Source: Catenulispora pinistramenti
Lineage (GTDB): Bacteria > Actinomycetota > Actinomycetes > Streptomycetales > Catenulisporaceae
Length of the DNA stretch: 64,000 nucleotides
NCBI RefSeq assembly: GCF_018274385.1
Contig: NZ_JAAFYZ010000028.1
Span: forward strand, 1-64,000
Reading direction: 5' to 3'
Each line of letters begins with the position of its first letter. Within the stretch, counting starts at the first letter, position 1. Both the position numbers and the translations under genes were made by a program. Positions 35,701 to 56,739 of the stretch are shown here, piece after piece. A model generated the notes under the pieces. The model saw only the letters and a list, made by a program, of their open reading frames with translations, did not search any database and was not told the origin of the DNA.

Positions 35701-37307
35701 TCGTACGAGTAGCGCTTCACCACCGTGTCGTCGCCGAGGCTGTCACCGGCCACCAGGCGCAAAGAGCTGATACGCGGACCAGTGGCTGTGGCAATCGTGT
35801 CGACGGCGATGCGGTAGCCCGGGTGCTCAATCAGCGTGGGTGTCCCCTGCGCGTCCCGTATCACGTCGATGCGATTGCCGTTGCGGTCGGAGACCGCTGT
35901 CAGATCTCGAATCTGCCCCAGCTCGTTTTGAAAGTGCGTGACAGCGAAGTGCCGTGTCTGGCCGGACCAAGGGTCAGTGATCCGGACCTCATCACTGCCA
36001 CGATCCCAAACAAGCGGCCAGCGGCTCCCCCGCTCAGGCAACATCTCGCTGCCGCCGACGGGTATCCCGTAGTCCAGCCGCTGCGCGTCATCACCAGCAA
36101 AGTGGATCCCCGCCTCGTTGATCGAGATCCGCTGGTCAAGGGTGGAAGACCAACCGGGGCCGAATAGGTGACCGGTTGCATAGCCGGAGGCGTAGGCGCG
36201 ACGCAGGATCACCGGCAGTGTGCCGGGCAGTTCCAAGTCGGTGGCGTCGGTGAGCATCCACCCGGACACCACATCGACGGGGTCGGCCATCTTCCCTGCG
36301 GGCCTGGCACCGTCTGCGGTTCGGGCTTCGGCACCAACGGCGTTCTCCGAGCCTTCAGCTTCCTTGCCGAACTTCGAAGCCATTGAGTCGAACGCCTTGC
36401 CGCCAACTTTTGACAATGCTCTACCACCCAGGAAGGTAGCGCCGAGCATGCCGGCGCCCAGCAGTGCGTCTCCCCAGTGGCCTTGCATGCCGTCGCCGGC
36501 GATCTGCACGCCGGTGCCGACAAGCGCGATCAGGTTGTCGGCCTCGGCCAGACCTGCGGTGACGACGTCCACTCCGGGGATCCAGGCGGTCGCGATCGCC
36601 AGCACGTCCAGGACCGGCGCGATATCCCCGGCGATCTCGCCGATCTTCCCGCCCCACTCGGCCAGCTCCGCACCGAGGTGCTCCCACCAGTGCTTGTTGT
36701 GGATACCGTCGGACTGGGCGTGATGGATCGCCTTGGCACAGTCTTTAGCCGCGGCGATGCGATCGTCGTGTGCTTGGTTCGCCTGCGCTGTGAGCGTGGC
36801 CATGTGCGCCTTGGCGTTGCTCAGGTTGGTCTGTGCGGTGTCGTGCGCGGCTTGCGCATCGGTGACGGCCTGCGGGTTGGGGGTGGTGGCGTGGCTCTGC
36901 TGCGCTGTCTTCAGATCGTCCGCGGCGGTGTTGGCGTTGGTGGTGGCGTGCTGCAGATCGACCTGCGCATCCTGCGCTTGCCGCAAAGCTGTATCAGCTT
37001 TGGATTGGGCTGCCTGCAGCTTTGGAGCGTACGCGGATAGTGCATCGGATGCCTCGCTGTAAGACGTGTACAGCTTCTGCAGCCGCCCCGGCAACGGGCC
37101 GTAGTTGGCCTTGAATGCTTCGGCTGTCTGGCCGACCCACTCCAGCGTCGTTGTGTCCGATCCGAACGAGTTCAAGCTCCGATACGCCGACTCGACGTCG
37201 TGTGCGAAGTCACCGAACTCTTTGGCCAGAGCCTGGACCGATTCCACGACACCCGGGGTGGGATCCCCATCCAGACCCAGAATGTCCCAGCCAGACGGAC
37301 GCGCCAT
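32781..37307 (-). CDS. Rhs-repeat polymorphic toxin with unassigned C-terminal domain
   Basis: A 1508-aa protein. The N-terminal WXG100-like helical module (about 1-100, LEWVGQTAEAFKANY) and coiled coil (100-180) suggest export by a type VII-like route. A hydrophobic Gly/Ala segment (about 230-300) follows, then a DUF6531-like start of the shell (MADPVDVVSGWMLTDATDLE, about 341). Many YD repeats span about 460-1290, then the Rhs core end ETGLHYNVHRYYDP (about 1330) and FADPLGLEY (about 1372). The last about 130 residues are the toxin tip, which I cannot name. ATG has GGGGGAGGG upstream. Confidence 0.9.
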   Translation of the reverse strand: MARPSGWDILGLDGDPTPGVVESVQALAKEFGDFAHDVESAYRSLNSFGSDTTTLEWVGQTAEAFKANYGPLPGRLQKLYTSYSEASDALSAYAPKLQAAQSKADTALRQAQDAQVDLQHATTNANTAADDLKTAQQSHATTPNPQAVTDAQAAHDTAQTNLSNAKAHMATLTAQANQAHDDRIAAAKDCAKAIHHAQSDGIHNKHWWEHLGAELAEWGGKIGEIAGDIAPVLDVLAIATAWIPGVDVVTAGLAEADNLIALVGTGVQIAGDGMQGHWGDALLGAGMLGATFLGGRALSKVGGKAFDSMASKFGKEAEGSENAVGAEARTADGARPAGKMADPVDVVSGWMLTDATDLELPGTLPVILRRAYASGYATGHLFGPGWSSTLDQRISINEAGIHFAGDDAQRLDYGIPVGGSEMLPERGSRWPLVWDRGSDEVRITDPWSGQTRHFAVTHFQNELGQIRDLTAVSDRNGNRIDVIRDAQGTPTLIEHPGYRIAVDTIATATGPRISSLRLVAGDSLGDDTVVKRYSYDQRGRLTGVINSSGSPFTYEWDENDRIIAWRDRGGYRYGYVYDHLDRVVRGEGAFLAGSFRYDPANRTTVFTNSLGHVTTFVYDENGHITAETDPLGNTTSTLSDLYGRVLSRTDPLGNITTLYRDEAGDIQSVVTADGSTVQFGHNRLHQVVSAVYPDGAEWRREYDERGNLTSVTDPSDAVVKFVYSDDGAPIAVTDQVGAVTRFTNDRAGLSLTVLDPLGGLTQADRDSAGRMVRVTNPSGAVTAFEWNVEGQPVARVDPDGARTVWHHDASGRLVRIVDPVGATTVFEPGPVETLMARTGPDGVRHTFTYDSELNLVEVGNPAGATWHYHYDAAGRLASETDFIGRTLAYEYDALGQLVMRTTRVGQRMTLEHDSAGNVVALRTPDGDYRYSYDSTGHMVNAAGPDNAVAFEYDPLGRVAAETVDGRTMRYGYDPAGRLVRRVTASGIESDWTYDAAGRPTGLAAGDDHVSFRFDEAGREIERLFSAGASLARGYDAVGRLVTQDLLAGSAGGMHSVFGRTWAWRADGTPEELQDTLRGVIRHYISDRAGRVTTVTAQGWTEDYAYEAFGNATLKDADPNGRPSGAVPEEATSAASSGAMRTLIRRAGRIHFEHDDAGRLIRTVRRTLDGRRRVWEYSWDSQDRLVQAVTPDNGTWHYIYDPLGRRTEKRRVGDDGAIAEQTVFSWDGPRLAEQQTPGARGSSVTLTWDYDPGTYRPAAQRRRGRSGDDADQDRIDEAFHAIVTDLVGTPTELVTPDGHVAWHTTTTLWGRTTSTVAEAGLDCPLRFPGQYYDAETGLHYNVHRYYDPDAAAYLTPDPLGLAPAPNDHAYAPNPLIFADPLGLEYEGAHYGEGFNTVNPDLPKPYINPKGNWTNDVYTVRQQAMLPHMSGSTVDGKSQFLFNSEPEKITLDAAAYADAHGLWVGNKARVYIENGPVGIVGKTGELTNWIRVTREGRMVHSWPVGPPSNG

Positions 37308-37490
37308 CAGTCGAACCCTCCCCCGAGTGTGCTGCTTAAATCAAGCGTGAGCAGTTGCTGGGCCAGCGCTGCTGGCCTCGGCCTCCCCTACTCACAACGA
37401 GAAATGAGTCTACAAAGCGGTCAGGATCTCGGTAACCCCCGAGCATGATTTGGTTGCGCTCTGTTCCGACCGTGTACGCGACCCATTGGG

Positions 37491-40040
37491 CTACGCCACC
37501 GAGTTGGTCATCATCGCTGCGAGGTGTGCGCTGGGCGTTGTCCCCAGCTGCGCAAGGAGATCGACCAGATCGCGAAAGCGGCGATCGGCAGCATGCCGCT
37601 GACCGAGGTCAAGGTGGAGGCTGATCAACGACTCATAAAGCCCCTGGTTCCAAGGTTCCATGCGAATCGCCCGATCCAGCACGTCAAGAGCTCTCTCGGG
37701 GTCCGAGGTACGTACCAACTCGGCGAGGCTCTGGTGTGTGTCGATGATGCGTGTCCAGTACTGCTCGCGAAACGGGCGGAGCCAGATCTCGTAAGGTTCG
37801 GTGAGCTTGTTCGCCCGCTCGATCGCGTAGCCGAGTTCCCCGCGATACAGCTCTACCGCGGCGGTCAACTCCTCGATGCGAGTGGCAGCGTCCACCCCAT
37901 CGCGACGCTTGATCAGTTCGTCAAACTGCCAGAGGTCGCTGTCGAAGTATTCGGGATTCAGATAGGCCACGCCGACGCTTCGATCCTTGGGGAAGAACTC
38001 AAGCTTGTCTCCGTAGATGCCGGCAAGGGCCGTACGGGTGTGGGACAACGCCGTGGTGAGGTGGGCCCTGCGCTTATCAGGGTCGTCTTCGGGCCACAGG
38101 TCGGCTGCCAAGGCAGCGCGGCTTACGCCGTTCCGATGGAGCACGAGGTACGTAAGCAACGCGATGAGCTGGACACGGACGTCAGCGGTTGCGTCACGGC
38201 CACCGCAGAGGATCTGGACCGGGCCAAGGATGTTGATCATGATGGCCTCCGACGCGGCCGGCTTCGCGTGGGAGGCCTGCGGAGGGATCGACGCCGACTC
38301 CATAGGGGTTCGCGGCGCGGGTGGTGCGGAGACCGCGGGTTTCACTGAGGATTCAGCCGTGGCGTCAGGATCGCTCCATGCCAAGGGCAAGTGTCCGAAA
38401 AGATCGCGTGCTTCGGGCAGGCTGAGATGATAGGCAGTCCCGCCTTCCAGTGCATTTGCTGCCGGACCACTTGCAGTGATCTCGAAAGCGGCGTTGATGT
38501 TCGCGACGCTGTTTGCCTGTCGGTTGCCGAGGTAGATCGGCACCACACGGCCTGTGGGCGCCTCCGTAGGCTCGTCCGACGGAGTAGCGAGCAGGAGACA
38601 ACGATCGGCTGTCGTGGAATTCGCTTCCTTCACAGCTTCTGCGTAGTCGGCGCAGACGGTCAGGTGCTCGACGCGCCGCGCGGCCAACTCGTCGCCCAGC
38701 AAGGCACGTAGGTCGGCGTCTGTCGTCACCACGGGAAAGGCAACCGAACTCGCCAAGAATCCGCCAGCCGTTAGACAGCTGAGCAGAAGTGCTCGCGCAG
38801 CGTCCTGCGCACCGCCGCCAGCGAGCGCGAGGCCGTTGCCCGCAGCGGTCTCCAGCAAAATCGGTCGTCCATCACAGACCCCGAGATAGACCGCCTCCGG
38901 TGCGCGCATCTCCGCTAGAACCGGTGGGACCGGTTCTACATCGCTGACCGGAACCGAGTCGATATAGGGATCCTCGTCATGGAATCCGAGTACGCCCGCA
39001 GCCTGAAGCAGCGACGTCTCGGTGTCGCTGAGCCTGGGCGTCGGCGGGACAAGTTCGTCGGGATCCCGGCGTGGCGGGCGAACGCGGGAGCGAATCCGCG
39101 CGGCGGCCAGGGCTGCTGTGAACCCGGCCGCGAGGGTGAGGCTGACGTAGCCGCCGCTCGGCAGATCCACCGCGACGGGGCGGCGCACGACGGGGCGCAC
39201 AGCAGACGAGTTGTCCACGCGATGGTGGGGTCCCGAGAAGGCAGGAGTCGAAAGCGCGCTATCGCGTTCACCAGCTGCGTTCGGAACCACCGATGTCGAT
39301 CCTGCCCGCACGGTCCTGGTCGCCGCGGAAGCTTGCGAAGGCACGGTCTTATGCCCGGGGGTGACCTCTGAGTCACCACGGGGTAGCACAAGCCGCCAGC
39401 CAGGCTGGATCAAGTTCGGATCGGTGAGAACGCGGCCATCGTCCTGGATCCGATGGCGGTTCAGCTCGAAGATCTCCCTCCACCGTTCACCATCCCCGAG
39501 GTACCTAGCAGCGATGTCCCACAGACGGTCTCCTACGACGACGACATGGATCGCGTTCTCAGAGGCGACGCTGACAGCGCCCCCTGACAGGCCGCCAACC
39601 TCCGTTCCACCATGCGTGCTGGTCGTAGCCACAGCAACGCCAAATGTCCCGCGTGCCGCGATGATGCTGAGAGCGATACTGGTCAGGAACCGGCCGGCAA
39701 GGTTGGCGTTCTCCATTGTCGGCATCACCACGCCAGTCCGCAGGCAACGTGCGGTGTCGGCGACGGCGCCTGGCAGTTGCACAGCGATCTGCAGTGTGAA
39801 GAGTGCCCACAGTATCCACGCGGCAGAGACCAGGACGTCGATCAACGCCTGGTCAGGGAACAGCTTGGCTGCGTCCAACCAGCCGGTGACGTCCGTATAG
39901 TCGGGCACGTGGTTCGGCACGGGAGACCAGTAGAAGCACGACAAGCCCCACGGCAGACCGCCGACGATCCCCACGAGCACCACCAACAACAGCGTCGGCC
40001 GGGCGATGCGAAGGAGTGCTCGCACATCAGAGCCTTTCAT
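37491..40040 (-). CDS. Membrane LysM protein with BTAD/SARP-like C-terminal regulator domain
   Basis: An 849-aa protein. Helices lie near 12-32, 65-85 and 115-135, followed by a LysM motif (HVVVVGDRLWDIAARYLGDG to IQPGWRLVLP, about 165-218) and another helix (about 300). A long linker leads to an OmpR-type winged helix (about 605-690, LLTYLVLHRNGVSRAALAAD) and a BTAD all-helical domain to the end. Such LysM-BTAD proteins usually neighbour Tad pilus loci in actinobacteria, as here. It may sense the wall and regulate the Tad operon. Confidence 0.85.
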   Translation of the reverse strand: MKGSDVRALLRIARPTLLLVVLVGIVGGLPWGLSCFYWSPVPNHVPDYTDVTGWLDAAKLFPDQALIDVLVSAAWILWALFTLQIAVQLPGAVADTARCLRTGVVMPTMENANLAGRFLTSIALSIIAARGTFGVAVATTSTHGGTEVGGLSGGAVSVASENAIHVVVVGDRLWDIAARYLGDGERWREIFELNRHRIQDDGRVLTDPNLIQPGWRLVLPRGDSEVTPGHKTVPSQASAATRTVRAGSTSVVPNAAGERDSALSTPAFSGPHHRVDNSSAVRPVVRRPVAVDLPSGGYVSLTLAAGFTAALAAARIRSRVRPPRRDPDELVPPTPRLSDTETSLLQAAGVLGFHDEDPYIDSVPVSDVEPVPPVLAEMRAPEAVYLGVCDGRPILLETAAGNGLALAGGGAQDAARALLLSCLTAGGFLASSVAFPVVTTDADLRALLGDELAARRVEHLTVCADYAEAVKEANSTTADRCLLLATPSDEPTEAPTGRVVPIYLGNRQANSVANINAAFEITASGPAANALEGGTAYHLSLPEARDLFGHLPLAWSDPDATAESSVKPAVSAPPAPRTPMESASIPPQASHAKPAASEAIMINILGPVQILCGGRDATADVRVQLIALLTYLVLHRNGVSRAALAADLWPEDDPDKRRAHLTTALSHTRTALAGIYGDKLEFFPKDRSVGVAYLNPEYFDSDLWQFDELIKRRDGVDAATRIEELTAAVELYRGELGYAIERANKLTEPYEIWLRPFREQYWTRIIDTHQSLAELVRTSDPERALDVLDRAIRMEPWNQGLYESLISLHLDLGQRHAADRRFRDLVDLLAQLGTTPSAHLAAMMTNSVA

Positions 40041-40286
40041 TGGCTGAATTCATGGGCTCGTGGTCGCTAGGATCGGTCGCGAAATCGTGCAGGAACATCG
40101 CGGACAGAACCGCGCCAGCGTATAAAGCCACAGGTCGCCGCGTTGGAGAGCCGAACACGTGTCGTTGCGACGTCACCCCATCGGGCGATCAGCCCAACGA
40201 GGCGCCGGAGCAATGACTCGGGTGGTGGTGGCGATCCAAGAACGGCGCCACTGCCGTCAAGGTCGCCGTCCCCATAGGGTGGGTTC

Positions 40287-40910
40287 ATGAGCGCGCGACG
40301 ATTCAACGGCCTCATCCTCGACTTCTTCGGCGTCCTGACATCGAACATGGTCGAGGTCACCACACAGTTCGTACTACGGGAAAAGCTTCATCCCTCAGCA
40401 TTCCTGCGCGCGTGGTCCGACCCCCGCGGACAGGAGCTCTACCGGAAGCTGGAGCTGGGCGAGATCGATCAGGCGGCCTGGAACACAGGGTTCGCTCCGC
40501 TGATCGGTGCCGAGCCGGACAACCTCATGGAACGCATGTGCTGGGACCTGTACCCGGCTCATGAAGTACTGAAGGTAGCCAAACAAGCGCGAGCAGCAGG
40601 CATAAGGACAGCAGTGCTGTCGAACTCCATGGGACGCCAGCCATACGACCCGTATGCGCCATACGACCTGCGCGGCAATTTCGATGAGGTCGTGCTGTCG
40701 GGCGAACACGGCATGCGTAAGCCCGATCCTGCGATTTTCCGCCTCGTTCTGGAACGGCTCGGGTTGACCGCTGAGCAGTGCGTGTTCGTCGACGACTCGG
40801 AGGAAAACCTTCAGGCTGCTTCGGACCTCGGGATGACGATCGTGTTCTCGCTGGACGAACGCGTGGTCGCACAGAGGCTCCGGATGTTGTTCGGTCTACC
40901 CGACCTGTAG
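40287..40910 (+). CDS. HAD-superfamily (subfamily IA) phosphatase-like hydrolase
   Basis: A 207-aa cytoplasmic enzyme. Motif I is LILDFFGVLTS (nucleophile Asp, with the second Asp replaced as in many YihX-like members). Motif II is TAVLSNS, motif III KPDPAIF, and motif IV CVFVDDSEENL. Substrate unknown. It is convergent with the XRE regulator, their stops overlapping by about 15 bp. Confidence 0.88.
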   Translation: MSARRFNGLILDFFGVLTSNMVEVTTQFVLREKLHPSAFLRAWSDPRGQELYRKLELGEIDQAAWNTGFAPLIGAEPDNLMERMCWDLYPAHEVLKVAKQARAAGIRTAVLSNSMGRQPYDPYAPYDLRGNFDEVVLSGEHGMRKPDPAIFRLVLERLGLTAEQCVFVDDSEENLQAASDLGMTIVFSLDERVVAQRLRMLFGLPDL

Positions 40911-42185
40911 AAACTCCCTCACCGCGGGATTTGATGTGTGCGCTGCTAGTTTGCGTCGCAACCCGACCAGCGTCGAAGACGAGCGGGCCGAATCAACCGA
41001 GCCTAGACAGCGGGCGGCATGCCGGGCCTGCGCCACAGCCGCGTCAAGGTCGTGCATAGCCAAGTGAGCCTCGGCAGCGCGGGCAAGGTAGATGGCATGG
41101 GACCGTGGATACTGGACGTCTCCGGGGTAGACGGCTTGAGCGGCGTTGAAGCAACTCAGGGCTCTGGAAGGATCGTTCATTTCCAGCGCCGACGAGCCGG
41201 CGATCATCTCCACTTCTCCTCTGGTAACCCAGTACAGGAACGGCGGATCATCGTCGTGCGGGCCCTTGTCCACCAGTACGCGGGCGGCCTCCAGAGCCCG
41301 GGCGCTTCCACGGAGGTCGTTCGTTTTGGACAATGCTCGCGCTTTGCGGGCGGCGAGCATGGCGCGCATCTTCGGCGTGGCATTGCGGGACACTGACGTC
41401 TCCGCTGCGTCCAGGAGGTTGACCGCGTTCTGCGGGTTGCCCGCGGTGTAGTGCTGAATCGCCATGAACGACATCGCGTAGGCCCCGGCGATCGCGTCCC
41501 CCGCTGTGGCCGAGGCCCGGAGTGAGGTTTCGAAGAACCGTTCTGCCGATGCGTGCCGACCGGAGTCGAACATGTTCCACGCGACCTGCCGGGCTGCCTC
41601 GCTTGCCATGCTGTACGCATTGTCTTCGGCGGTGCCGTTCAGATGCCCGGCTCTGAGGAGTTCGACGATCATCGCGAGCTCGCTGCGCGCGTAGCGTGCG
41701 ATGTCACCGCTGCCGAACTCATCATCGAGGTGCCTCAGGTAATCGAGTCGCTTCTCGATATGACCGAGTAGTCGTGGCGCAGCGACAAGCGGGGGGCTGC
41801 TCGCTGTCGCCGGCTCGTCTTGGGCCCCGAGGGCCGTGGACCAGTGACCGATCAACGTGGTCAACGCCGCCGCACCTGTTGTCACGACGAAGTTCCGACG
41901 GTCCAAGCCGCCTCCATTTGCCATTTCCGTCAGGGCCGCGAAGGCCCCCTGACGGTTCCATGGTGCCTCCTGCGCAGCCGTTCCGTCGACCATTGCGCCG
42001 AATGCGCCACCGGTCGCCAAGACGCGGTCGTAGGCCTTGGCGACGTCGCAAGTGACGGGCTTCGTCCCGTTCTCCACGTTGCGCAGGTGACTCTCAGAGT
42101 AGCCCGCTGCACGCGCGAACACGTTGAAGGCCAGCCCCGAACGCCGCCGAGCGGCTCGCAGTTCGGCTCCTAGCTCTTCCGTCAT
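40896..42185 (-). CDS. XRE-family regulator with TPR-like C-terminus
   Basis: A 429-aa protein. The N-terminal XRE HTH (LGAELRAARRRSGLAFNVFA to SESHLRNVENGTK, about 1-60) precedes an all-helical TPR-like region (about 130-420), as in Streptomyces regulators of differentiation or signalling that pair with ATPase-like proteins. ATG 42185 is preceded by AAGGGCGG; the open frame continues upstream to 43139 only as the shadow of the divergent genes. Divergent from the small gene at 42312. Confidence 0.85.
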   Translation of the reverse strand: MTEELGAELRAARRRSGLAFNVFARAAGYSESHLRNVENGTKPVTCDVAKAYDRVLATGGAFGAMVDGTAAQEAPWNRQGAFAALTEMANGGGLDRRNFVVTTGAAALTTLIGHWSTALGAQDEPATASSPPLVAAPRLLGHIEKRLDYLRHLDDEFGSGDIARYARSELAMIVELLRAGHLNGTAEDNAYSMASEAARQVAWNMFDSGRHASAERFFETSLRASATAGDAIAGAYAMSFMAIQHYTAGNPQNAVNLLDAAETSVSRNATPKMRAMLAARKARALSKTNDLRGSARALEAARVLVDKGPHDDDPPFLYWVTRGEVEMIAGSSALEMNDPSRALSCFNAAQAVYPGDVQYPRSHAIYLARAAEAHLAMHDLDAAVAQARHAARCLGSVDSARSSSTLVGLRRKLAAHTSNPAVREFLQVG

Positions 42186-42311
42186 GATGCCGCCCTTGCC
42201 GGAAAAGGAATCGCCTGGGAATCGGTCAGCGTCATTGTTCCCCGTCCGGTGACGCGGTGTGCTCATTTCGGCGCAGATCGCGTCGGCCTTACGGGAAAGC
42301 GGGAGGAAATC

Positions 42312-42674
42312 GTGGGCCTCACCAGCATCGACGAGCCTTTCGATGGTTCGCACACCACAGCACCCCCAAAGTGTGAGAGCGCGAAGGCTTCGATCCTCAG
42401 CCGAGTCACGCAAGAGGGTCACACAGACAGCTATGGCGTGTTGCTGCACCTCGTCGCAGTCATGGGCAGGGAGCCGAAGGCACTCAACCCTCGAACGGAG
42501 AAAGAGCTCGCCGAGTGGAGCGGCCACTTCCGGGGCTTGAAATCCGCGCTGCTTTGCCTGGTGATGCACGAACGGAAGGTTGAGCCCAGTTCCGCCGCAC
42601 TGGTCGTCTATCGGCACGTCAAGAGCGCAACGGACGATCTGGACCGTCGCGGCGGCAGCGAGACCGGAGGGTGA
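42312..42674 (+). CDS. Small hypothetical protein upstream of the HATPase-HTH gene
   Basis: A 120-aa protein. GTG 42312 follows GGGAGGAAATC, a strong RBS, so it is chosen over the longer frame from 42249. It is mostly helical (GVLLHLVAVMG, LKSALLCLVMHERKV), with no known family. It ends 3 nt before the next ATG, so the two are co-translated; divergent from the XRE gene. Confidence 0.65.
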   Translation: MGLTSIDEPFDGSHTTAPPKCESAKASILSRVTQEGHTDSYGVLLHLVAVMGREPKALNPRTEKELAEWSGHFRGLKSALLCLVMHERKVEPSSAALVVYRHVKSATDDLDRRGGSETGG

Positions 42675-42677
42675 GCC

Positions 42678-43862
42678 ATGTCCTACTGGTCCAAGACCTT
42701 CGACGGACGTCCTGAACACGTATCGGAAGTAAGGGAGTTCACGCGCAAGGCGATCGGTGACTATGACGGTGTCGACCTGGTGGAACTGGTCGCCTCCGAG
42801 CTGGCTGGCAATGCGGTCCGGCACAGCGACAGCGGCGAACCTGGCGGAGAGTTCACGCTGCATCTTGCGACGTTCCTCGACCGATGGCAGGTCCGCGTAG
42901 ATGACGCGGGCGGGCCGAAGGTGCCGCACATCTGCGAGCCGAAGCCGATCGACAGCATCGCGGACCTGGATGCTTTCGGCGACGAGGTCGAGACCGGACG
43001 AGGCTTGGCACTCGTCGCGGCGGTGTCGTCGAAATGGGGCGTGCTCGGAGACCAGGCCGGCCACGCTGTGTGGGTCGAGATCTTGATGCCCCAGGAGATG
43101 GCTGCGCGAAAGGTGTTCGGAGTTCGTGGGACCGTCCACAGGGGCTGGAGCGCCATGACGCTGCGAGTTGACGATGCGGCGGAGCAGAACCTCGCACGGA
43201 TCGTCGGTGGCCTGCGAGCTGTACGACTGGTTACCACACTTTCCCAGAACGCCCTGTCGTCAGGTCTGCCAGTTCGGGGAAGAGCAATCTCCGAGTGGGA
43301 GACCGGACTCGTAGAACCGACCTTGGATCACCTGATGCAGTGGTCGCGTGAGCTCGGCCGACGCCTCGTGATCGTCGGTCCGGACAACGAATTGCGGGAT
43401 GGATCACCACGTCCGCGCGCTGGCGAGACCTGGGAGGTTCTCCAGAGACGACGGCTGGCTTCGCCTTTGAGAAACCGTCGCTTGGCCTTGCGGCTGACAC
43501 AGAAGGAACTCGGTGAACTGGTCGGCGTCAGCCGGGACTCGATCCAACGGTGGGAGCACGCTCACGTACCTCCGCGACCGATTGCGCTGATCGTTTGGGC
43601 GCACAAGCTGGAGTGCTCCCTGGCCCTGCAGGCAATCGATGTGCCAGCCACCGGGCTGGTCTCAGGAGTCGGCGGATTCGGGGTGCGCGGTGGCGGCGGC
43701 GTGCATGGTCATGGTGTTCATGCCGATCAGCCCGAGCAGCCAGGTGCGGTGCGAGGCGGAAACAGTAACGGTCACAGCACCAGAGGTCGCTGTGACGCTT
43801 CCACTGTCACCAGTGGCCGCCAGGTATTGCTTGGCCGCCAAGGCAGCAGCGGTCTCGTCTAG
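42678..43862 (+). CDS. HATPase (anti-sigma-type) fused to two HTH segments, tail antisense to TadG gene
   Basis: A 394-aa protein. Residues about 1-140 form an HATPase_c_2/RsbW-like kinase domain (ELVASELAGNAVRHSDSG N-box, GRGLALVAAVSSKWG G-box). An HTH-like region follows (about 180-215, LSQNALSSGLPVRGRAISEW), then a clear XRE HTH (about 262-310, LALRLTQKELGELVGVSRDS). From about residue 328 the sequence becomes Gly/His/Gln-rich low-complexity and overlaps the minus-strand TadG-like gene by 201 nt, so the original stop may have been lost. Confidence 0.75.
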   Translation: MSYWSKTFDGRPEHVSEVREFTRKAIGDYDGVDLVELVASELAGNAVRHSDSGEPGGEFTLHLATFLDRWQVRVDDAGGPKVPHICEPKPIDSIADLDAFGDEVETGRGLALVAAVSSKWGVLGDQAGHAVWVEILMPQEMAARKVFGVRGTVHRGWSAMTLRVDDAAEQNLARIVGGLRAVRLVTTLSQNALSSGLPVRGRAISEWETGLVEPTLDHLMQWSRELGRRLVIVGPDNELRDGSPRPRAGETWEVLQRRRLASPLRNRRLALRLTQKELGELVGVSRDSIQRWEHAHVPPRPIALIVWAHKLECSLALQAIDVPATGLVSGVGGFGVRGGGGVHGHGVHADQPEQPGAVRGGNSNGHSTRGRCDASTVTSGRQVLLGRQGSSGLV

Positions 43863-44087
43863 GACACGTGTCCCGGTGCGGTGGAAGATCCCGATGTCGA
43901 GCTGTTCGGCTCCGGCGCGAGCGGCCTCAGACGCCTCGTCCACGGCCCGGACTTGCGTGGCCAAGGCGGATCCGCCGTCGCCGACGAGACCGGTGAACAG
44001 CAATAGCGCGGCGAACACGATGACGATGACGATGAACGCCGTTACCGATCCATCTTCCGGATCTCGATACCTCAGCCTGCGGATCAC
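43662..44087 (-). CDS. TadG/Rv3654c-like pseudopilin, Tad pilus
   Basis: A 141-aa protein with an N-terminal GSVTAFIVIVIVFAALLLFT helix preceded by a processing-like Gly, and an extracytoplasmic domain. This fits the TadE/TadG-like minor pilin found last in actinobacterial Tad operons. GTG 44087 overlaps the previous stop (GTGA). Its 3' half is overlapped by the convergent HATPase gene. Confidence 0.75.
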   Translation of the reverse strand: MIRRLRYRDPEDGSVTAFIVIVIVFAALLLFTGLVGDGGSALATQVRAVDEASEAARAGAEQLDIGIFHRTGTRVLDETAAALAAKQYLAATGDSGSVTATSGAVTVTVSASHRTWLLGLIGMNTMTMHAAATAHPESADS

Positions 44088-44497
44088 GGAGCGTCCGCCT
44101 GACGCCAGGTGTCGATCCCGGACACCATCCGCTCGCTGATCTGTATTGTGCCTGGGAAGCCGACACCAGTGATGTCCGCGAGCCGCGGATGGCAATCCAC
44201 TGTCACGGCGACAGTGCCACCTGGGCGGAATGCGGAGGTGTCGACGATGACATTCGGGTGCGGGCACGACATGCTGCTGTCGGCATCCACCGTCGCGTAC
44301 GCGGCGGCGACGGCCTGATCCGCGCTGCGGGCCAGCGACGCAGCCCGTGCAGCTGAGCCGGCGGCGGTCTCGGCCAGCATCTGCGCCTCGGTAACGCGCC
44401 CCAGACCGACGGTGAACAAAACCACCAGTATCAACAGAGGAGTGGCTACAACGAGCTCGACGGCCGCACTACCCTCCTCACGGTCTCGCGACGTCAT
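44084..44497 (-). CDS. TadE-family minor pilin
   Basis: A 137-aa protein. EEGSAAVELVVATPLLILVV (about 7-26) is the TadE signature: a Gly-Ser cleavage region, the invariant Glu at +5-like position and a hydrophobic helix. Two Cys (MSCPHP, VDCHPR) could bond outside. It is coupled by overlaps to both neighbours in the Tad operon. Confidence 0.85.
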   Translation of the reverse strand: MTSRDREEGSAAVELVVATPLLILVVLFTVGLGRVTEAQMLAETAAGSAARAASLARSADQAVAAAYATVDADSSMSCPHPNVIVDTSAFRPGGTVAVTVDCHPRLADITGVGFPGTIQISERMVSGIDTWRQADAP

Positions 44498-44928
44498 GAT
44501 GCGGCGGCGGTGGTCAGGGCCTCGTTCGGAGTACGTGCGACCGAGGAGACCTTCAGGTGGAGGAATGGCACGACCGTCGCAACGGTGCCGGAGATCCGCA
44601 CCGTCGTGAGCGTCGCGCTCCTGGTGACTGCGACATCGGTGGCGGTGAGAAAGCCAGCTCCGACAGTTCCCAGAATCCGGTGCGCTTCAGACGTCCCGTT
44701 ATCGATTTTGCCGTGTTCGCTGCTGGTGCCAGCCGCCGCCTGTGCGGCGGCGGCCTGGGCGACGTGCAGCGCGCAGAAGTACACCGCGAACTGCACGATC
44801 ACCATGAGCACGAGCAGCATCACCGGCGTAATCACGACCATCTCTACTGTTGATGAGCCGTCGTCGGCGGTCCGAGACGTCAGGGCACGACCGGACCTAG
44901 TCGGCGGCATCTTCTGCAAACGGGTCAC
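44494..44928 (-). CDS. TadE-family minor pilin
   Basis: A 144-aa TadE-like protein: DDGSSTVEMVVITPVMLLVL (about 22-41) gives the conserved processing Glu and helix, followed by an Ala-rich helix AAAAQAAAGTSSE. GTG 44928 overlaps the stop of the Flp-like gene. A second TadE gene follows, as is common in actinobacterial Tad loci. Confidence 0.85.
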   Translation of the reverse strand: MTRLQKMPPTRSGRALTSRTADDGSSTVEMVVITPVMLLVLMVIVQFAVYFCALHVAQAAAAQAAAGTSSEHGKIDNGTSEAHRILGTVGAGFLTATDVAVTRSATLTTVRISGTVATVVPFLHLKVSSVARTPNEALTTAAAS

Positions 44929-45167
44929 GGATTCGTGTTGAGGCTCGGGGTGTCGAGGCTGATGCTGTGGGCCTTGGCGATCACGGCATTACCGATGATC
45001 GTCGCCACCCCGATGGCGATCAGCGCGAAGGCTGCGGTGATGATGGCTGTCTGTAGCGCATCACCGGCTTCGGGGTCGGACTTGGCAATACGTTCGAGGT
45101 GGCTGCTAGCGCGTTCCCGCAGCGTCGAGAGACGGACGGCGTAGGCCGCGGCCAGGCGGTACATCAT
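44925..45167 (-). CDS. Flp-type major pilin candidate
   Basis: An 80-aa protein. DPEAGDALQTAIITAAFALI (about 31-50) resembles the Flp prepilin region: a Gly, a Glu-like acidic residue and a long hydrophobic helix continuing IAIGVATIIG. ATG 45167 has GGAG upstream. It lies between TadC and TadE genes, the usual place of the major pilin in these operons. Confidence 0.78.
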   Translation of the reverse strand: MMYRLAAAYAVRLSTLRERASSHLERIAKSDPEAGDALQTAIITAAFALIAIGVATIIGNAVIAKAHSISLDTPSLNTNP

Positions 45168-45205
45168 CTTCAGGGTGCTCCATTCTCTTGGGGGATGGCA
45201 TACAG

Positions 45206-46105
45206 CTACTGAAAGGTGGTCATGATCCGGTAGACAGATGGAAAGCCGAGGATCAGGAGGAATGCGAAGAGGATCAGACCGACCGGAATGTGCATCATCT
45301 CGGTGGCCGAGGCCGTCTGACCTTCACTTTCGGCCTGGAGGCGTCCGCGCAACGCTGTGGACTTGGCAGTCAGGGAGTCTGCGATGCGTGCGCCTTCAGC
45401 TCCAGCCAGCCTGATCGAGGCGCCGAGTTCGGAGAGTTCTGGGAGGTCGATCTCGTTGCCGAGTTCGCCATAGCAGTCCCAGATCGAGCGTCGCGACAGC
45501 CTCGATTTCGTTGCCGCGGCACGAAAACGGGCAAAACTCGGCCCACTGCCGATCGCGGCTGCGCTGGCCAGGGCTTCCTCGATGCCATCTCCGGACTGCA
45601 GGCTGGTGGAGGCGAACGACAACAGCGCGCCCAGCGCGGCACGGGACTCGGCCCGCGCAGTGCGAGCTCTCGCGCGAGTGTCGAAGTCGGGAACGAGGAA
45701 CAAGGCCGCGCCGAGCACCAAGCCCATGCAGACCACGACCGCGTTCGGCAGTCCGACGCCGCCAGCGGTGAGCATCAGCTGGAACAAGGCTGGCATGAGC
45801 AATCCGGCAACGGCCGCGGTGACCTTCTTCGTCAGGAACGTATCGGGGTCCTGGCCGGTCAGCGCCAGGTCCGTCATGAGTCGATCGCCTGGCAGGCCGA
45901 ACGCGGACAGCGCTCGGATCGCCGGGGCAGTCAGCCACTGTTCCAGACCGGGCCGTGCAGAGGCGGCCGGTGCCGACGTCTCGGCAGGCGTCTCGCTGGC
46001 GAGGATTTGTTCGGCTTCGGCCAGGCCGATAGCCGGGGGCCGGATCCCGTAGAGGAGGGCTGTCAGCCCGAGACCGAATCCCGCGCCCCAAAGCATCGCA
46101 ATCAA
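45206..46105 (-). CDS. tadC: TadC-like pilus platform protein (T2SS F domain)
   Basis: A 299-aa membrane protein. Helices lie at the N-terminus (MLWGAGFGLGLTALLYG), around 105-145 and at the C-terminus (IPVGLILFAFLLILGFPS). The GspF-like domain has ELGNEIDLPELSELGASIRL and RIADSLTAKSTALRGRLQ. It forms the inner-membrane platform with TadB. TTG 46105 has GGAGG 7 nt upstream and overlaps the TadB stop (TTGA); ATG 46096 is the alternative. Confidence 0.85.
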   Translation of the reverse strand: MIAMLWGAGFGLGLTALLYGIRPPAIGLAEAEQILASETPAETSAPAASARPGLEQWLTAPAIRALSAFGLPGDRLMTDLALTGQDPDTFLTKKVTAAVAGLLMPALFQLMLTAGGVGLPNAVVVCMGLVLGAALFLVPDFDTRARARTARAESRAALGALLSFASTSLQSGDGIEEALASAAAIGSGPSFARFRAAATKSRLSRRSIWDCYGELGNEIDLPELSELGASIRLAGAEGARIADSLTAKSTALRGRLQAESEGQTASATEMMHIPVGLILFAFLLILGFPSVYRIMTTFQ

Positions 46106-47040
46106 CGTGTCGCCTCCGTATCTCGTGCGCCTCGGGGGCGGGGCGGGATCGTGGCCGACAAACCGCCTACCTCTGGGGCCTGGTTCAATGCGTCCAGCCG
46201 GGTCAGGAACCTAGGCACGGAGGCCGGACGAGCGATGCGGATCAACCAGGCGAATCCGGCGGCGAAGATACCGCCGGCGACTCCGAGGTCGAGTTGCCCG
46301 GCTGCGGTCGAAAACGGATCGAGGTAGGTGGCGTCAGCGACCAATAGCAGGATCGTGATGCCGAGAATCACGGCGGTGATCACGCGCACGGCAGTGCGGA
46401 TCTGAGCGCGGGCGGCCACCGTCCGGCGCATGGCCAACGCCTGGCCACGGGCTTCGGAGGCGAGCGCGGTAAGCGTGGCGGGCAGATTGCGGGACGGTCT
46501 ACCGTTGGCGTGGATCAGAGTGGCACAGATCAGGTCAGCGATCGGATCGGCGAGCGTTTCGTCCAGCTTCCCGAGTGCATCGGTGACTTTCACACCGTGC
46601 CGCAGATCGTTGTGCAGCGTGCGCAGTGGTGCCTCGATCGCTTTCGGCGGTACGGCGGACGCGGCAAGTACCGCCTCGGTCAGCCCAGAAGCCGCCGACA
46701 GAGTGTCTCGGAGCATCTCGGCGAACCCGGCGCAGCCTTCAGTGCGGGCGATGATCCGCTCGGATTCGCTGTCTGGCCCGAGCACGGCTGGAAGCCACCA
46801 GCATCCAGCGGTAGCCAGCACTCCGGCCACCGGCCAGCCTGTGGCCGCGACCGCCGCGATCCCAACCGCCAGACTGAGAAGAAGCCTGCGCCATTTGACG
46901 AGCAGCGGACGCAGGTCGATATTCACAGCCAGCCGCGGGTTTGGACGGCTGCGCGACGCCTTGGGCCGGAAGGCGTGGCGGACCATCAGCAGGCCGATCC
47001 CGAACCCCGTCCCGCACAACGCGCCGAACAGGCCGTTCAC
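46102..47040 (-). CDS. tadB: TadB-like pilus platform protein (T2SS F domain)
   Basis: A 312-aa protein. N-terminal helix NGLFGALCGTGFGIGLLMVR, a helix pair about 60-95 (LAVGIAAVAATGWPVAGVLA), a GspF core (EMLRDTLSAASGLTEAVLAA, VKVTDALGKLDETLADPIAD) and C-terminal helices. It partners TadC and is driven by TadA. GTG 47040 overlaps the TadA stop (GTGA); the frame further upstream is only a shadow of TadA. Confidence 0.85.
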   Translation of the reverse strand: MNGLFGALCGTGFGIGLLMVRHAFRPKASRSRPNPRLAVNIDLRPLLVKWRRLLLSLAVGIAAVAATGWPVAGVLATAGCWWLPAVLGPDSESERIIARTEGCAGFAEMLRDTLSAASGLTEAVLAASAVPPKAIEAPLRTLHNDLRHGVKVTDALGKLDETLADPIADLICATLIHANGRPSRNLPATLTALASEARGQALAMRRTVAARAQIRTAVRVITAVILGITILLLVADATYLDPFSTAAGQLDLGVAGGIFAAGFAWLIRIARPASVPRFLTRLDALNQAPEVGGLSATIPPRPRGARDTEATR

Positions 47041-48374
47041 GATGCCCACGCCGGAACGTCGAACCAGGCACAGTCGAAGCCGGCTTCTTCCAGCAGTTCC
47101 AGTTTCTCGTCGCTCGGGACGACGTTGAACACCCCGCGTCGGTCCGAACGTTGTTTGAAGATCTCGTTCGACACGACGTCCTCGCCGCGAGCGTTCGCGA
47201 CCTCCCGGATCGACGACACCACCCGGACCTTGTCCTCGTGACTGCCCTTGGACCACTTCAGCTGGATCACCAGATGGACCGAGTTCGCGACCATCAGAGC
47301 CGTGGACGCTGGTGACAAACGCTCGGGAGCTTGTGCAGCATAGGAGGCGAGCTTCCCAAAGGCGCCGCGCGAATCAGAGGCGTGAATCGTGGCCATACTG
47401 CCATCAATGCCTTGTGACATGACGTTACATACCGATACAACTTCCTCGCCCCGGATCTCCCCGAGGATCACTCGGTCGGGCGAGCCTCGCAGCGCCATCC
47501 GCACCAGCTCGGCCTGATTGATACCGCCGACGTTTTGGGTGTTCGGGTACTTGACCTGGTACGCGGTGACGTCGGGATGCCGCTCCGGATCGTACAGCCC
47601 GAGTTCATAGACGTCTTCGATGGTGATCAGCCGCTCGTCAGGCGGGATCGCTGAGGCGAGCGCGCGCAGCATGGTCGTCTTGCCCAAACCCGGTCCCCCG
47701 GAAATGAGGATATTGAGCGTTGCGCGGACAGCAGCCTGCAGGAACTCGTACAACACGTCGTCGAGCGTGCCCAAATCTCGGAGCGTGGCGAGCGTTGCGT
47801 CAGGAAAACGGTGACGCCTGATAGAGACTGTTGGGCGGTCGCACACGCCCATTGCGGCGAACAACCGCGAGCCGTCCCCCAACTTGAGGTTGATGCTCGG
47901 TTGCTCCCGGTCGAACCGCCTCTCCTCGGCACCCGGACGGGCCGCGAGCACGCGGATCAGCTCGATCAGCTCGCTGTCCGAAGCTGCGACCGGCGTCTTC
48001 CCTTCCGCCCGTCGGCCGTCGGAAAACTTCAGACGGACATTGTCATACCCATTGCAGTTGATGTTCTCAATGGATAGATCATCCAGATACGGCTGGAATC
48101 CGCCGTGGCCAAACAGCACGTCGACGACCTGGCCAGCGATCCGCTCCTCGGCCTCGGCGTCCAGGTAGTGCGCCCCGACCGACAACGACCGCTTGGCGTG
48201 CACCGCAAGTTCGCCCTCGGTGATCGCAGCGACCATCTCTCGTCGGCGTTGTTCGGGGACCGGCCGCCCCGTCAGTTCCTCCTCTTCTTGGCATAGCTCG
48301 GCCAATCGGATACCGACCGTGGTGGCGATCTGCGATCCGATCCCAGCTTCCGACTTAAGGCTGATCTCGGTCAC
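47037..48374 (-). CDS. tadA: TadA/CpaF secretion ATPase
   Basis: A 445-aa ATPase that powers Flp pilus assembly. Walker A GGPGLGKTTMLRALAS (about 228), Asp box ERLITIEDVYELGL, Walker B DRVILGEIRGEEVV (about 305), His box ATIHASDSRGAFGK. The N-terminal domain has LSIENINCNGYDNV typical of CpaF. GTG 48374 overlaps the TadZ-like stop; upstream open frame is antisense noise. Confidence 0.93.
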   Translation of the reverse strand: MTEISLKSEAGIGSQIATTVGIRLAELCQEEEELTGRPVPEQRRREMVAAITEGELAVHAKRSLSVGAHYLDAEAEERIAGQVVDVLFGHGGFQPYLDDLSIENINCNGYDNVRLKFSDGRRAEGKTPVAASDSELIELIRVLAARPGAEERRFDREQPSINLKLGDGSRLFAAMGVCDRPTVSIRRHRFPDATLATLRDLGTLDDVLYEFLQAAVRATLNILISGGPGLGKTTMLRALASAIPPDERLITIEDVYELGLYDPERHPDVTAYQVKYPNTQNVGGINQAELVRMALRGSPDRVILGEIRGEEVVSVCNVMSQGIDGSMATIHASDSRGAFGKLASYAAQAPERLSPASTALMVANSVHLVIQLKWSKGSHEDKVRVVSSIREVANARGEDVVSNEIFKQRSDRRGVFNVVPSDEKLELLEEAGFDCAWFDVPAWAS

Positions 48375-49141
48375 GCGGAAGCTCCTACTCCTGTAGCAGT
48401 GCGGGCAGCGTGCGGCGCCACGCCAGCGACGAGCCTTCGCCCGATAAGCATGTCTCCGATGCCGACGGCGGCTTCTCGGAATCCGGCCTGGGTGTGGTCG
48501 CGGCGGAGCCGGTCCACAACCCGGGAGGCCGCGCCCGTCGGCAGCAACGGCAATGTGCCCCAAACCGGCAGTTCCAGCAGCCATGTCAGCTCAGCCGGCG
48601 AGTAACCAGAACCGACCAATACGAGCCCGACATCAGGATGAAGTTCTCTGATGCGCCCGAGGGCAGCCTTTAGCCCGAGGGCGTGTTCAACCACCGGCCG
48701 GATCACGAGGATCAGCGACTCGGCGCGGGCAAGCACTGCGCAGGTCTCGGCATCACGCGGGTCCAACCGTCCGCAGTCGGCGAACACGACAGCCTCCGAG
48801 TCCGCGGCAACCGTCGCCAAGAGCCCACCCGGCTTTGCCAACACCGCGATCAGCGGACGCAGCCGCTCGCCGTCCTCTGGCGCAGTCACCACCGCGGCTC
48901 CAGCCGATGTCGTGCGAGTGTGCTCGGCCAGCAGTCGGGCATCGCCGCCGTGTCGGGCGGCGCTGGCCAGGGCTTCAACTGTCCGGGATCCGGGGATCAG
49001 AAACCGGCAGGCCGCGGAACCACCGCGCGGATCGCACTCCAGTACGACTGCGCTCTGCGGACCAGGCCAGGACTCGGCAAGCGCAAGCGCAGTCGTGGTC
49101 ACACCCGGCGCGCCGCGCCACGATCCCACCGCGAACAGCAT
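48371..49141 (-). CDS. TadZ/CpaE-like MinD-type ATPase
   Basis: A 256-aa ParA/MinD-like protein. A deviant Walker A region WRGAPGVTTTALALAES (about 9-25) lacks the usual GKT lysine pattern, and VVLECDPRGGSAACRF supplies the switch Asp. In Tad loci this protein positions the pilus machine. It shares one base with the CpaB stop (TGATG) and overlaps TadA. Confidence 0.82.
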   Translation of the reverse strand: MLFAVGSWRGAPGVTTTALALAESWPGPQSAVVLECDPRGGSAACRFLIPGSRTVEALASAARHGGDARLLAEHTRTTSAGAAVVTAPEDGERLRPLIAVLAKPGGLLATVAADSEAVVFADCGRLDPRDAETCAVLARAESLILVIRPVVEHALGLKAALGRIRELHPDVGLVLVGSGYSPAELTWLLELPVWGTLPLLPTGAASRVVDRLRRDHTQAGFREAAVGIGDMLIGRRLVAGVAPHAARTATGVGASA

Positions 49142-49863
49142 CAGTTGCCCGCTGACGGTGGCAGTACGGCAAGGGATACCCCAGACGGGCCGGCCGAGGC
49201 GACTTTCTGGATCGAGGTCTGGTCCATCAGGAGATCGGCGACCGTGCCGCCTTGACCGTCTGATCTCCCGACCTTTGTCACCACCGCATACGTCGGGACC
49301 GGCGCGGGAGCGACTGCCGCAGTATTGGTCGTCGGCGTCGGAAGCTGGCTGTCGCCCGCGACTACGACCTGGACTCGGTCACCGGCCGCCAGATCCAGCG
49401 GGTAGGCGCCGGCCCGAAGCGCCACAGCCAGCTCGGCCTGCCCGGCAGGCGGGAACGTCGACTTCCCGATGTCGGTAACGTTTAACAGCGATCCCGGCGT
49501 CAGCGGCACGGCTACCGTCCGTCCGACCACTTTCGAGGCCATCGAAGCGTCGATAGTCCCCACACCAGCCTCGGCAGCCACAGGAATCGTGCGCAGTGCG
49601 TCGGAGGTGATCGTCTGGCCTGCGGCCAGCGGCTCCGCGACCACGAGCACGGGGGACTTCTGACTAAGCAGTCCCGACGCGGCGGAAAACCCGACCGCCG
49701 TGGCGACGACTGTCAGACCGCCGCCGATCGCCCACGGCAGCTGCATCCTTCGCGGAGCCGACAGCAGTCCTGTCCTGAGCTGCTTCTTTCCTGCCTGGCG
49801 GGACGGATCGGGAGCGGTACGTCCGGGCGGAACTTGGCCCGGGCGCGTAATCTGCGTGGTCAT
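49141..49863 (-). CDS. CpaB/RcpC-like SAF-domain protein
   Basis: A 240-aa membrane-anchored protein: helix about 45-65, then a SAF domain (VVAEPLAAGQTITSDALRTI; VVGRTVAVPLTPGSLLNVTD) and LAAGDRVQVVVAG. This is the CpaB/RcpC fold that supports Tad pilus passage. It follows the 320-aa protein by 35 bp and directly precedes TadZ. Confidence 0.85.
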   Translation of the reverse strand: MTTQITRPGQVPPGRTAPDPSRQAGKKQLRTGLLSAPRRMQLPWAIGGGLTVVATAVGFSAASGLLSQKSPVLVVAEPLAAGQTITSDALRTIPVAAEAGVGTIDASMASKVVGRTVAVPLTPGSLLNVTDIGKSTFPPAGQAELAVALRAGAYPLDLAAGDRVQVVVAGDSQLPTPTTNTAAVAPAPVPTYAVVTKVGRSDGQGGTVADLLMDQTSIQKVASAGPSGVSLAVLPPSAGN

Positions 49864-49898
49864 ATACGTGTCCTGTGTGTTCTTCGTTGTCGGTCGCG

Positions 49899-50861
49899 TC
49901 AGTTAGAGACGCCGGTGACCAGTGCCTGAACCTCGGAGACCTGGACCTGCGTGCCAGACGATGTGCGCAGGTTGGGGAAGGTCCCGCTGCTGTTCCCGGT
50001 CCCGGACCACGCCACTTGCCAATCCACCGTCGCGGTCACCGGGAACGACCCGCCCTGCAACGTCGCCGACGGCCGCTGGTAGGTGTATCCACAAGTTGGG
50101 GATAGCGATGGAGGATGCGCCGATGGATCGGATGGATAGGGCGTCCCCGGCCCGTGGCACGTCACGCTTCTGCCGTCGCCCATCGACCATGTGACCGACA
50201 CAGGCGTCGCGCTCGCGGTCACCGACGCCCCACCCGCCGACGCACGCGCCGTGAGCGGAGCCCACATTGCGGTGGGGACCGAAAGCCATAGCGGCATTCC
50301 GACCAACTCCGGCCGCGTGCTCGGCGGACTCAACACCAGCGTCGGAGCTGGAGGCTTCAGCTGCTTGTAGGCGACTTGGGCAAGGGCTGACGGCGTAGCA
50401 GGAGCCGCCGCCGGGACCCAGACGATGTCGCCGACCATCGGACGCAGCATCTTGCCCATCTTGAGGATGTCATCTGCGTTTCCGCTGCATTGCTCGCGCA
50501 TCCAGGACCCGGCTTCGCCCACGTGAGAATCAGCCGGGCTCATTGCCGACGGCGGAACGAAGCTCGGGTCGGGCGTGAAGTAGCAGACAACGGGTGGCGG
50601 CCGTCCCGGCCCTGATGCAGCAACCGGCGCAGCGGTTTTAGCCGGCGTAGAGCTGGCGCCCAGGTCGCACTCGGCAGTCTCGCACTGGATCTCAGCAATC
50701 GTGTCGCTGATTACCGGAGACTTGGACTGCTGACCAGCGGGAACCGACGTCGTTGGGGAAGGCGGAGGCGCCGGGATCACGGTCGCGAGCAGCATCGCGA
50801 GCGCCCCCACCGAGGTCAGCATGTACCCGCGGGGTGGAAGACGAACTTGCTGACTTTCCAC
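49899..50861 (-). CDS. Secreted protein of the Tad operon, unknown
   Basis: A 320-aa protein with one N-terminal helix (LTSVGALAMLLATVIPA), a Pro-rich stalk and a C-terminal beta domain with PKD-like patterning (SVTWSMGDGRSVTCHGPG, CGYTYQ, VTATVDWQVAWSG). It occurs in the place where actinobacterial Tad operons carry a secreted accessory protein. The start is uncertain: GTG 50861, overlapping the upstream gene by 46 nt, or ATG 50822, overlapping by 7. Confidence 0.7.
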   Translation of the reverse strand: MESQQVRLPPRGYMLTSVGALAMLLATVIPAPPPSPTTSVPAGQQSKSPVISDTIAEIQCETAECDLGASSTPAKTAAPVAASGPGRPPPVVCYFTPDPSFVPPSAMSPADSHVGEAGSWMREQCSGNADDILKMGKMLRPMVGDIVWVPAAAPATPSALAQVAYKQLKPPAPTLVLSPPSTRPELVGMPLWLSVPTAMWAPLTARASAGGASVTASATPVSVTWSMGDGRSVTCHGPGTPYPSDPSAHPPSLSPTCGYTYQRPSATLQGGSFPVTATVDWQVAWSGTGNSSGTFPNLRTSSGTQVQVSEVQALVTGVSN

Positions 50862-51364
50862 ACGCCGTCGATATCGTCGACTTGCACGTCAACCGCATGG
50901 CGTCCCCCAACGCCGGGGATCTGGGTCCCGTCGGTCTTGAACTGAAGCCATGTGGAGGCGTCCGCGCAATCGGCCAAGATCGCCTCGGTTGGAGTTCCCT
51001 GCGGCGTCAACTTCACGACTCGTGGGCTATCAGCGGGTCGCCCCTTGCTCACCACACCTGCGGCCTGCGCGGCCGCGACGGTTCTGACGAGTTTTGACAG
51101 CGCATCACCACTGGTATGGCGGGTCAGGATCGGATCCTGATAGTTCGAAGTCTTCGATACAGCCGTCCAGTCGGCCATCATCCCGTCGTACGCAGCCAGT
51201 GCATTTCGGCTTGCGATAGACACCGGGTCGGTTGGCAGGATGGAGGATGGCGCCGATGCCGGCGTGTGCGGTGATGGCCGCATCGAGCTACCGCAACTGG
51301 CGGTCAGCACCGTGACCAAGGCGTACACGACGAGGGCCACACGACCGACATGCTTCCCCGCCAC
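50816..51364 (-). CDS. Lipoprotein at the head of the Tad operon
   Basis: A 182-aa lipoprotein: signal peptide with lipobox VLTASCG (Cys about 24), Ser/Pro linker, then a helical-beta domain (NALAAYDGMMADWTAVSKTS, ADCADASTWLQFKTDG, GVWKVSKFVFHPAGTC) resembling small actinobacterial lipoproteins of the NTF2-like type. GTG 51364 has GGGAGGATC upstream. It overlaps the next gene. Confidence 0.75.
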   Translation of the reverse strand: MAGKHVGRVALVVYALVTVLTASCGSSMRPSPHTPASAPSSILPTDPVSIASRNALAAYDGMMADWTAVSKTSNYQDPILTRHTSGDALSKLVRTVAAAQAAGVVSKGRPADSPRVVKLTPQGTPTEAILADCADASTWLQFKTDGTQIPGVGGRHAVDVQVDDIDGVWKVSKFVFHPAGTC

Positions 51365-51538
51365 AGCGATCCTCCCGAGTCTGGTGTATTCGAGCCGCGC
51401 CGACTCGAAAACTTGATGACGACTACTTCAGTCCATCAGCAAACGTGAGGAAAGCAACAAAGCACTGATATCACTCGAAAGTGGTAACTATGGGTATTAT
51501 CGAGCTGGGTATTCGATCGACGGATCCCTCCGGACCGT
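51365..51538 (-). promoter_or_regulatory. Probable promoter region of the Tad operon
   Basis: 174 bp between the prepilin peptidase stop and the first lipoprotein, notably AT-rich for this genome (words such as GATAATAC and GTGATATCAG on the minus strand). No other gap of this size interrupts the chain down to 43662, so the main promoter probably lies here. Confidence 0.45.
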
Positions 51539-56735: not shown

Positions 56736-56739
56736 GGTG

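Follow-up and report, generated by a model that had tools for sequence, protein, structure and literature searches.

The 394-codon reading frame at 42678-43862 (+) of the Catenulispora pinistramenti window appears to consist of two ordinary neighboring genes, one for an anti-σ-like HATPase and one for a double XRE-type helix-turn-helix (HTH) protein, joined by the loss of a single stop codon and continued into a tail that lies antisense to a tadG-like pilus gene. (The window is the whole 64,000-nucleotide stretch analyzed, positions 1-64,000 of NZ_JAAFYZ010000028.1, assembly GCF_018274385.1; positions count from its first letter.) Comparison with Catenulispora rubra DSM 44948 points to two events of different age: a cassette encoding the ATPase and HTH proteins would have been placed against the tadG 3′ end in the common ancestor of the two strains, and a TGA-to-CGA substitution would later, in the window lineage only, have removed the HATPase stop and joined the genes into one frame. 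We put the probability of this reading at about 0.8. The fusion is mostly an ordinary small mutation, yet it exposes an uncharacterized three-gene regulator cassette.

The frame is a single open reading frame (ORF) whose ATG (42678) closely follows the stop codon (42674) of a small upstream ORF and whose own stop ends at 43862. A search of the 394-aa protein against Pfam-A found HATPase_c_2 at residues 11-132 (42.7 bits; cutoff, 27.4) and HTH_3 in two stretches (54 bits; cutoff, 23). AlphaFold2, given the window protein aligned with 38 of 42 collected HATPase and 50 of 53 collected HTH sequences, predicted a HATPase fold at residues 1-136 and similar helical repeats at 166-233 and 252-319, each closing with a strand; the model is uncertain where they meet (141-160; block pLDDT, 54-58), and residues 326-394 are predicted to be disordered (pLDDT < 50 nearly throughout). 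Against each other, the two repeats are 27% identical over 48 residues (E = 0.003). Thus, the first-pass annotation of this DNA, which had described a HATPase continuing into one or two XRE-type HTH segments, is borne out, with two repeats. The HATPase part (residues 1-143, 42678-43106 [+]) has an RsbW/AbaA-like ATPase fold: Foldseek matched the model to 18 RsbW/SpoIIAB-type chains at E ≤ 0.001, the best (E = 7e-7) being a chain of the Bacillus subtilis RsbV/RsbW complex. Residues E41, N45, D76, G78, G107, and G109, of the N, G1, and G2 boxes of the ATP-binding motif, are 100% conserved in 37 other HATPase rows from the genus and intact in the window. For the HTH part, the phage P22 c2 repressor matched the second repeat by phmmer (residues 260-314; E = 5.6e-5) and only weakly by Foldseek (55 columns; E = 0.013).

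The fusion point is the CGA codon at 43107-43109 (+), residue 144. When the window DNA was aligned with the C. rubra locus (88% identity over 6.2 kb, with the block complete and collinear), TGA stood in the place of CGA, so that C. rubra has two adjacent genes and its HATPase stops directly after residue 143; the proteins on either side are 85% (HATPase) and 78% (HTH) identical to their window counterparts. The following stretch (43110-43154 [+], residues 145-159, with GGAG at 43147-43150) is, by its substitution pattern and low pLDDT, a former intergenic linker: over 43107-43154, 16 of 48 sites differ from C. rubra, spread 7/4/5 over the three codon positions in a spacer-like manner. We infer that TGA is the ancestral state; the direction of change rests on paralogues and on the one syntenic relative found.

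Paralogous loci support separate genes as the normal arrangement. A survey of tandem pairs in 60 Catenulispora loci plus the window yielded 27 HATPase-HTH pairs, of which the window pair is the only fused one; the earlier statement that such HATPases are normally separate proteins holds for the other 26. The two genes overlap by 1 or 4 nt in 17 of the 26, which suggests coupled translation, and are separated by spacers of 37-215 nt (measured to the column of Met160) in the remaining 9, one of which has a premature HATPase stop. Just 2 of the 26 pairs share one reading frame. Since one substitution cannot fuse out-of-frame genes, the arrangement in the window and C. rubra was predisposed to fusion. 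In an order-wide search (147 genomes drawn evenly, 15 candidates scored per genome, matches listed to E of about 2e-9), no listed match other than the window itself ran uninterrupted over both halves.

Neither half looks decayed. Relative to C. rubra, substitutions fall 9/10/32 at codon positions 1/2/3 in the HATPase and 27/18/34 in the HTH gene, with dN/dS values of 0.21 and 0.38, respectively. Among seven other cassette pairs compared, six gave values of 0.22-0.36 (HATPase) and 0.07-0.37 (HTH); the seventh, with one synonymous HATPase change and an identical HTH gene, was not informative. The HTH value in the window comparison (0.379) is the highest of the seven available (others, 0.072-0.374), which could reflect mild relaxation. 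Measured against paralogues, lineage-specific changes are equally divided between the window and C. rubra (HATPase, 3 and 3; HTH, 7 and 7), with 14 HATPase and 21 HTH changes left unassigned. At columns conserved in ≥85% of sequences, the window departs at 47, 129, 133, and 237, and C. rubra shares all of these but 129. We rejected a pseudogene for these reasons: both halves retain their conserved residues and give dN/dS values below 0.4. The HTH gene (43155-43640 [+], core to residue 321), delimited by Pfam, AlphaFold2, dN/dS, and a conserved start methionine, is likely also translated alone from Met160 (ATG at 43155), because 87% of the other HTH rows also have Met here and GGAG lies four bases 5′ of the ATG.

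The join to the Tad operon appears to be older than the fusion. The tadG-like gene (43662-44267 [−]) scores just above threshold for Pfam Tad (PF13400; 22.5 bits; cutoff, 22.3), probably starts further in, near 44174, and has matches in all 10 genus genomes. We examined 19 tadG-bearing Tad loci, including those of the window and C. rubra, drawn from 38 Tad-like places; L138 and L139 are one locus and were counted once. At 16 of the 17 other Catenulispora loci, a match to the LysM-BTAD gene (37491-40040 [−] in the window; its LysM and BTAD labels are our assignments from sequence features) begins 9-226 nt after the tadG match; at the seventeenth (L155, a second locus), a LysM-BTAD match about 230 nt away lacks the N-terminal part and is left out of this range. 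The corresponding gap is 3,625 nt in the window and 7,373 nt in C. rubra, and among the loci examined these two alone hold the block of HAD, NsdA, small ORF, HATPase, and HTH genes there. At the other end of the block from the HTH gene lies a HAD-type hydrolase gene (40287-40910 [+]; Pfam Hydrolase, 66.1 bits), followed by a divergent gene for an NsdA-family XRE/TPR regulator (40896-42185 [−]; NCBIfam NF053720, 236.3 bits; cutoff, 75). About 20 nt separate the end of the HTH core from the tadG stop. The simplest reading is therefore that the HTH gene probably lost its own 3′ end at this junction, which we place at 43641-43661 (+) from the end of HTH matches near residue 320, the tadG stop (43662-43664), and the arrangement of other Tad loci. 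C. rubra (G003:C57; loci L009, L036, L136, and L151) has the same block in the same place with the same antisense tail, its HATPase and HTH genes split by TGA. The first-pass annotation had proposed a joining of the regulatory cassette to the Tad operon, and the 16 loci that lack the block agree with it; but this was not a recent event, since the junction and the tail are also present in C. rubra.

The block was also rearranged internally. In G000:C223 (L149, in the genome of the window) and in G001 (L154), genes related to HAD, NsdA, and the small ORF are found on the far side of LysM-BTAD instead, in the order NsdA, short peptide ORF (66 aa in L149), asparagine-synthase-like gene, methyltransferase gene, and small ORF, followed in L149 by a HATPase gene. 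The asparagine-synthase-like and methyltransferase genes are missing in the window and C. rubra, and residues ∼1-41 of the window small ORF match DNA at the start of the peptide ORF (in L154, in two frames); this DNA may encode protein or may just be conserved as upstream sequence. A single inversion placing the block between tadG and LysM-BTAD would leave the orientation of LysM-BTAD unexplained. As a separate observation, the NsdA-flanked peptide ORF, asparagine-synthase-like gene, and methyltransferase gene (L149:15516-18742 and L154:5076-7870) resemble a small peptide-modification cluster. C. rubra carries about 3.7 kb of extra DNA between HAD and LysM-BTAD (L151:6160-10086), with frames of 602 and 216 aa.

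The C-terminal tail (43662-43862 [+]) was set apart by its substitutions, dN/dS, and pLDDT. Its 201-nt overlap with the tadG-like frame, reported in the first-pass annotation, is confirmed. Within the overlap, 17 of 30 substitutions relative to C. rubra fall at tadG codon position 3, which is tail codon position 1, and tadG beyond the overlap shows a similar 15 of 25 at position 3; dN/dS over the overlap is 0.19 when read as tadG and 1.31 when read as tail. Moreover, an open antisense frame of this length is common: 2,597 of 4,895 67-codon stretches (53%) in the same register opposite 15 window genes are free of stops. Given the constraint on tadG codons and this openness, the tail is most simply a by-product, with no sign of constraint at the protein level. 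Homologous HTH matches mostly end near residue 320, close to the normal end expected earlier (about 325); tail lengths in the family vary (n = 62; median, 26 aa; four of ≥60 aa), so the long tail may also be native. The first-pass annotation had set a homologue with the same full-length C terminus against its own account. C. rubra does share the tail, but its frame runs further, for 121 aa past residue 321, compared to 73 in the window.

These comparisons bear on three other explanations of the frame. One is that CGA at 43107 is an assembly or base-call error and that the strain truly has TGA, which would leave the two genes separate and ordinary, like those of C. rubra. The two states differ by one base, the 11.46-Mb C. 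pinistramenti genome is a draft in 671 contigs, and every other tandem pair examined is unfused. Against this, no further stop interrupts the linker, and the 3 nt of indels relative to C. rubra leave the reading frame of both halves intact. The frameshift suspected in the first-pass annotation is not what we found: the two sequences differ by a substitution that lies in no homopolymer, a rare kind of error in a consensus sequence. We infer that the CGA codon is real, and consider an error here quite unlikely. Less probable still is that selection maintains the full 394-aa product, with its tail, as a fusion protein with a functional C terminus. The open C. rubra tail frame, which aligns through residue 394, would fit such a protein, but tail substitutions fall mainly at tadG third positions, the tail-frame dN/dS exceeds 1, the tail is predicted to be disordered, and about half of equal antisense stretches are open anyway.

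The first-pass annotation had suggested a join to the Tad operon by a break that removed the stop. In the strong form of that proposal, a single recent rearrangement would have made both fusion and tail. This would agree with the position of the block between tadG and LysM-BTAD, which, of the loci examined, only the window and C. rubra share. However, in C. rubra the junction and tail coexist with unfused genes, which calls for two events unless C. rubra regained its stop, and the fusion itself goes back to a different change, the stop loss at 43107 seen in the window alone; we regard a single rearrangement as very improbable. An old join to tadG followed by a later stop loss thus remains our preferred reading. 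An old rearrangement and a later single substitution can each yield an odd frame, liable to be taken for one strange gene.

The cassette exposed by the fusion recurs elsewhere in the genus. The small ORF upstream of the HATPase gene (42249-42674 [+]; conserved part, ∼42372-42671) is matched 30 times across 8 of 10 genus genomes; among the Catenulispora loci collected, a HATPase gene lies ≤250 nt downstream at 27 of 28 small-ORF places, and a small ORF precedes 24 of the 27 HATPase-HTH tandem pairs. AlphaFold2 predicts helices within residues 45-138 of its product (block pLDDT for residues 1-40, 45-49). Neither this product nor two homologues matched a Pfam-A family above cutoff, the window protein giving no match at E ≤ 10; Foldseek returned nothing at E ≤ 0.001 for its model (best, 0.26), and a second structure search (VIA) gave a designed protein as the top match (Z = 8.6), a Z common for helical models, so we assign the protein to no fold family. 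Matches to the HTH half, among those listed from the 147 genomes, came only from Catenulispora and from four genomes of the family at 32-39% identity.

Cassettes are also often found near Tad loci. Of 38 Tad-like places (29 of 30 TadG-like rows, the second row of one locus being dropped, plus nine places with TadE-like matches only), 14 lie ≤15 kb from a cassette, here defined by HATPase/HTH matches at E of 4e-17 or better merged within 3 kb; densities predict 0.93. The other 24 have no cassette within 15 kb, several being on contigs without any cassette match. The TadB proteins of the 14 linked places form five groups (19 TadB sequences; single linkage at 60%), so these places are not independent events, and the linkage may stem from shared accessory chromosome regions. 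The set of a predicted small helical protein, a HATPase, and a double HTH protein recurs in Catenulispora, often near Tad loci; we offer the linkage to Tad loci as a lead only. Elsewhere in the genus, cassettes L038 (G000:C113) and L049 (G002:C444) are 99.2% identical over 1,619 nt in two species, more alike than two other cassette pairs from the same genomes (dS, 0.09-0.17); recent transfer is possible. A paralogous HATPase gene at L040:10357-11235, whose 292-aa translation was scanned with Pfam, carries a long C-terminal extension of another kind, which indicates that such HATPases have grown at the C terminus more than once.

By organization, the cassette is most like the Streptomyces abaA/whiJ/bldB clusters, in which AbaA is a HATPase, WhiJ an XRE protein, and BldB a DUF397 protein. 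Streptomyces genomes each have many paralogous copies in which an anti-σ-like HATPase gene adjoins genes for an XRE DNA-binding protein and a small protein (PMC10294661 and PMC4255298). Streptomyces WhiJ9 binds DNA and activates its neighbor, and the same 2023 paper describes effects of overexpressing an abaA paralogue (PMC10294661). Both systems thus have many copies of a HATPase beside an XRE protein and a small protein. WhiJ-type proteins, as that paper presents them, have an N-terminal HTH-Xre domain, which we read as a single domain; in contrast, two XRE repeats fill the Catenulispora protein, in which no other domain was found. DUF397 was absent among Pfam-A matches at E ≤ 10 for the window small ORF and two homologues, and also among the eight window proteins scanned with Pfam. 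The Catenulispora pairs further differ from these clusters in the 1- or 4-nt overlap of 17 of 26 and in the fused window copy. Because no DUF397 was found and the HTH is doubled, we do not file the cassette, as judged from sequence, as a member of these clusters. The available portions of PMC10294661, PMC4255298, and PMC6262351 contain no description of it, and literature searches linking Catenulispora with the Tad pilus, or NsdA with Streptomyces and tetratricopeptide, found nothing.

The HATPase also shares its fold with the RsbW/SpoIIAB anti-σ ATPases, but its usual neighbors are a small ORF and an HTH gene; no σ factor or anti-anti-σ gene was identified among the scanned cassette genes. 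The NCBIfam RsbW equivalog scored 16.6 bits on the window protein (cutoff, 155.05), and models for XRE antitoxins and DicA were likewise below cutoff (DicA, 44.8 of 101 bits; MqsA type, 42 of 61.8; couple_hipB, 36.2 of 71.65).

If the cassette behaves like AbaA/WhiJ-type clusters and RsbW-type switches, the ATPase might gate DNA binding by its HTH partner. In such a scheme, the ATPase would bind the HTH protein in an ATP-dependent state and control its DNA binding, the small helical protein would be a third partner of the pair, and the fusion would make the interaction intramolecular through a covalent tether. We hold this scheme tentatively, at somewhat less than even odds. It is more doubtful still that the cassette is an uncharacterized regulatory switch that has multiplied in Catenulispora with repeated ties to Tad loci, the window fusion serving as a natural "Rosetta" copy from which the ATPase and DNA-binding protein can be read as one working complex. 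Nevertheless, a natural one-base fusion of an ATPase to a DNA-binding protein, which exist in a coupled two-gene form in many paralogues, provides a handle for probing such a complex and its response to ATP.

Scans for other elements found no Rfam match at the gathering threshold in 36000-54500 and no promoter in 43000-44300; the latter interval contains two terminator-like sites on the minus strand, one inside tadG (shuffle mean, 0.5). Elsewhere in the window, 51539-56852 contains closely spaced short repeats, which several frames cross without a stop, and after them genes that resemble the cas1, cas6, and cas5 genes of type I systems. A 1,508-aa protein with YD-type repeats, to our eye Rhs-like, is encoded at 32781-37307.
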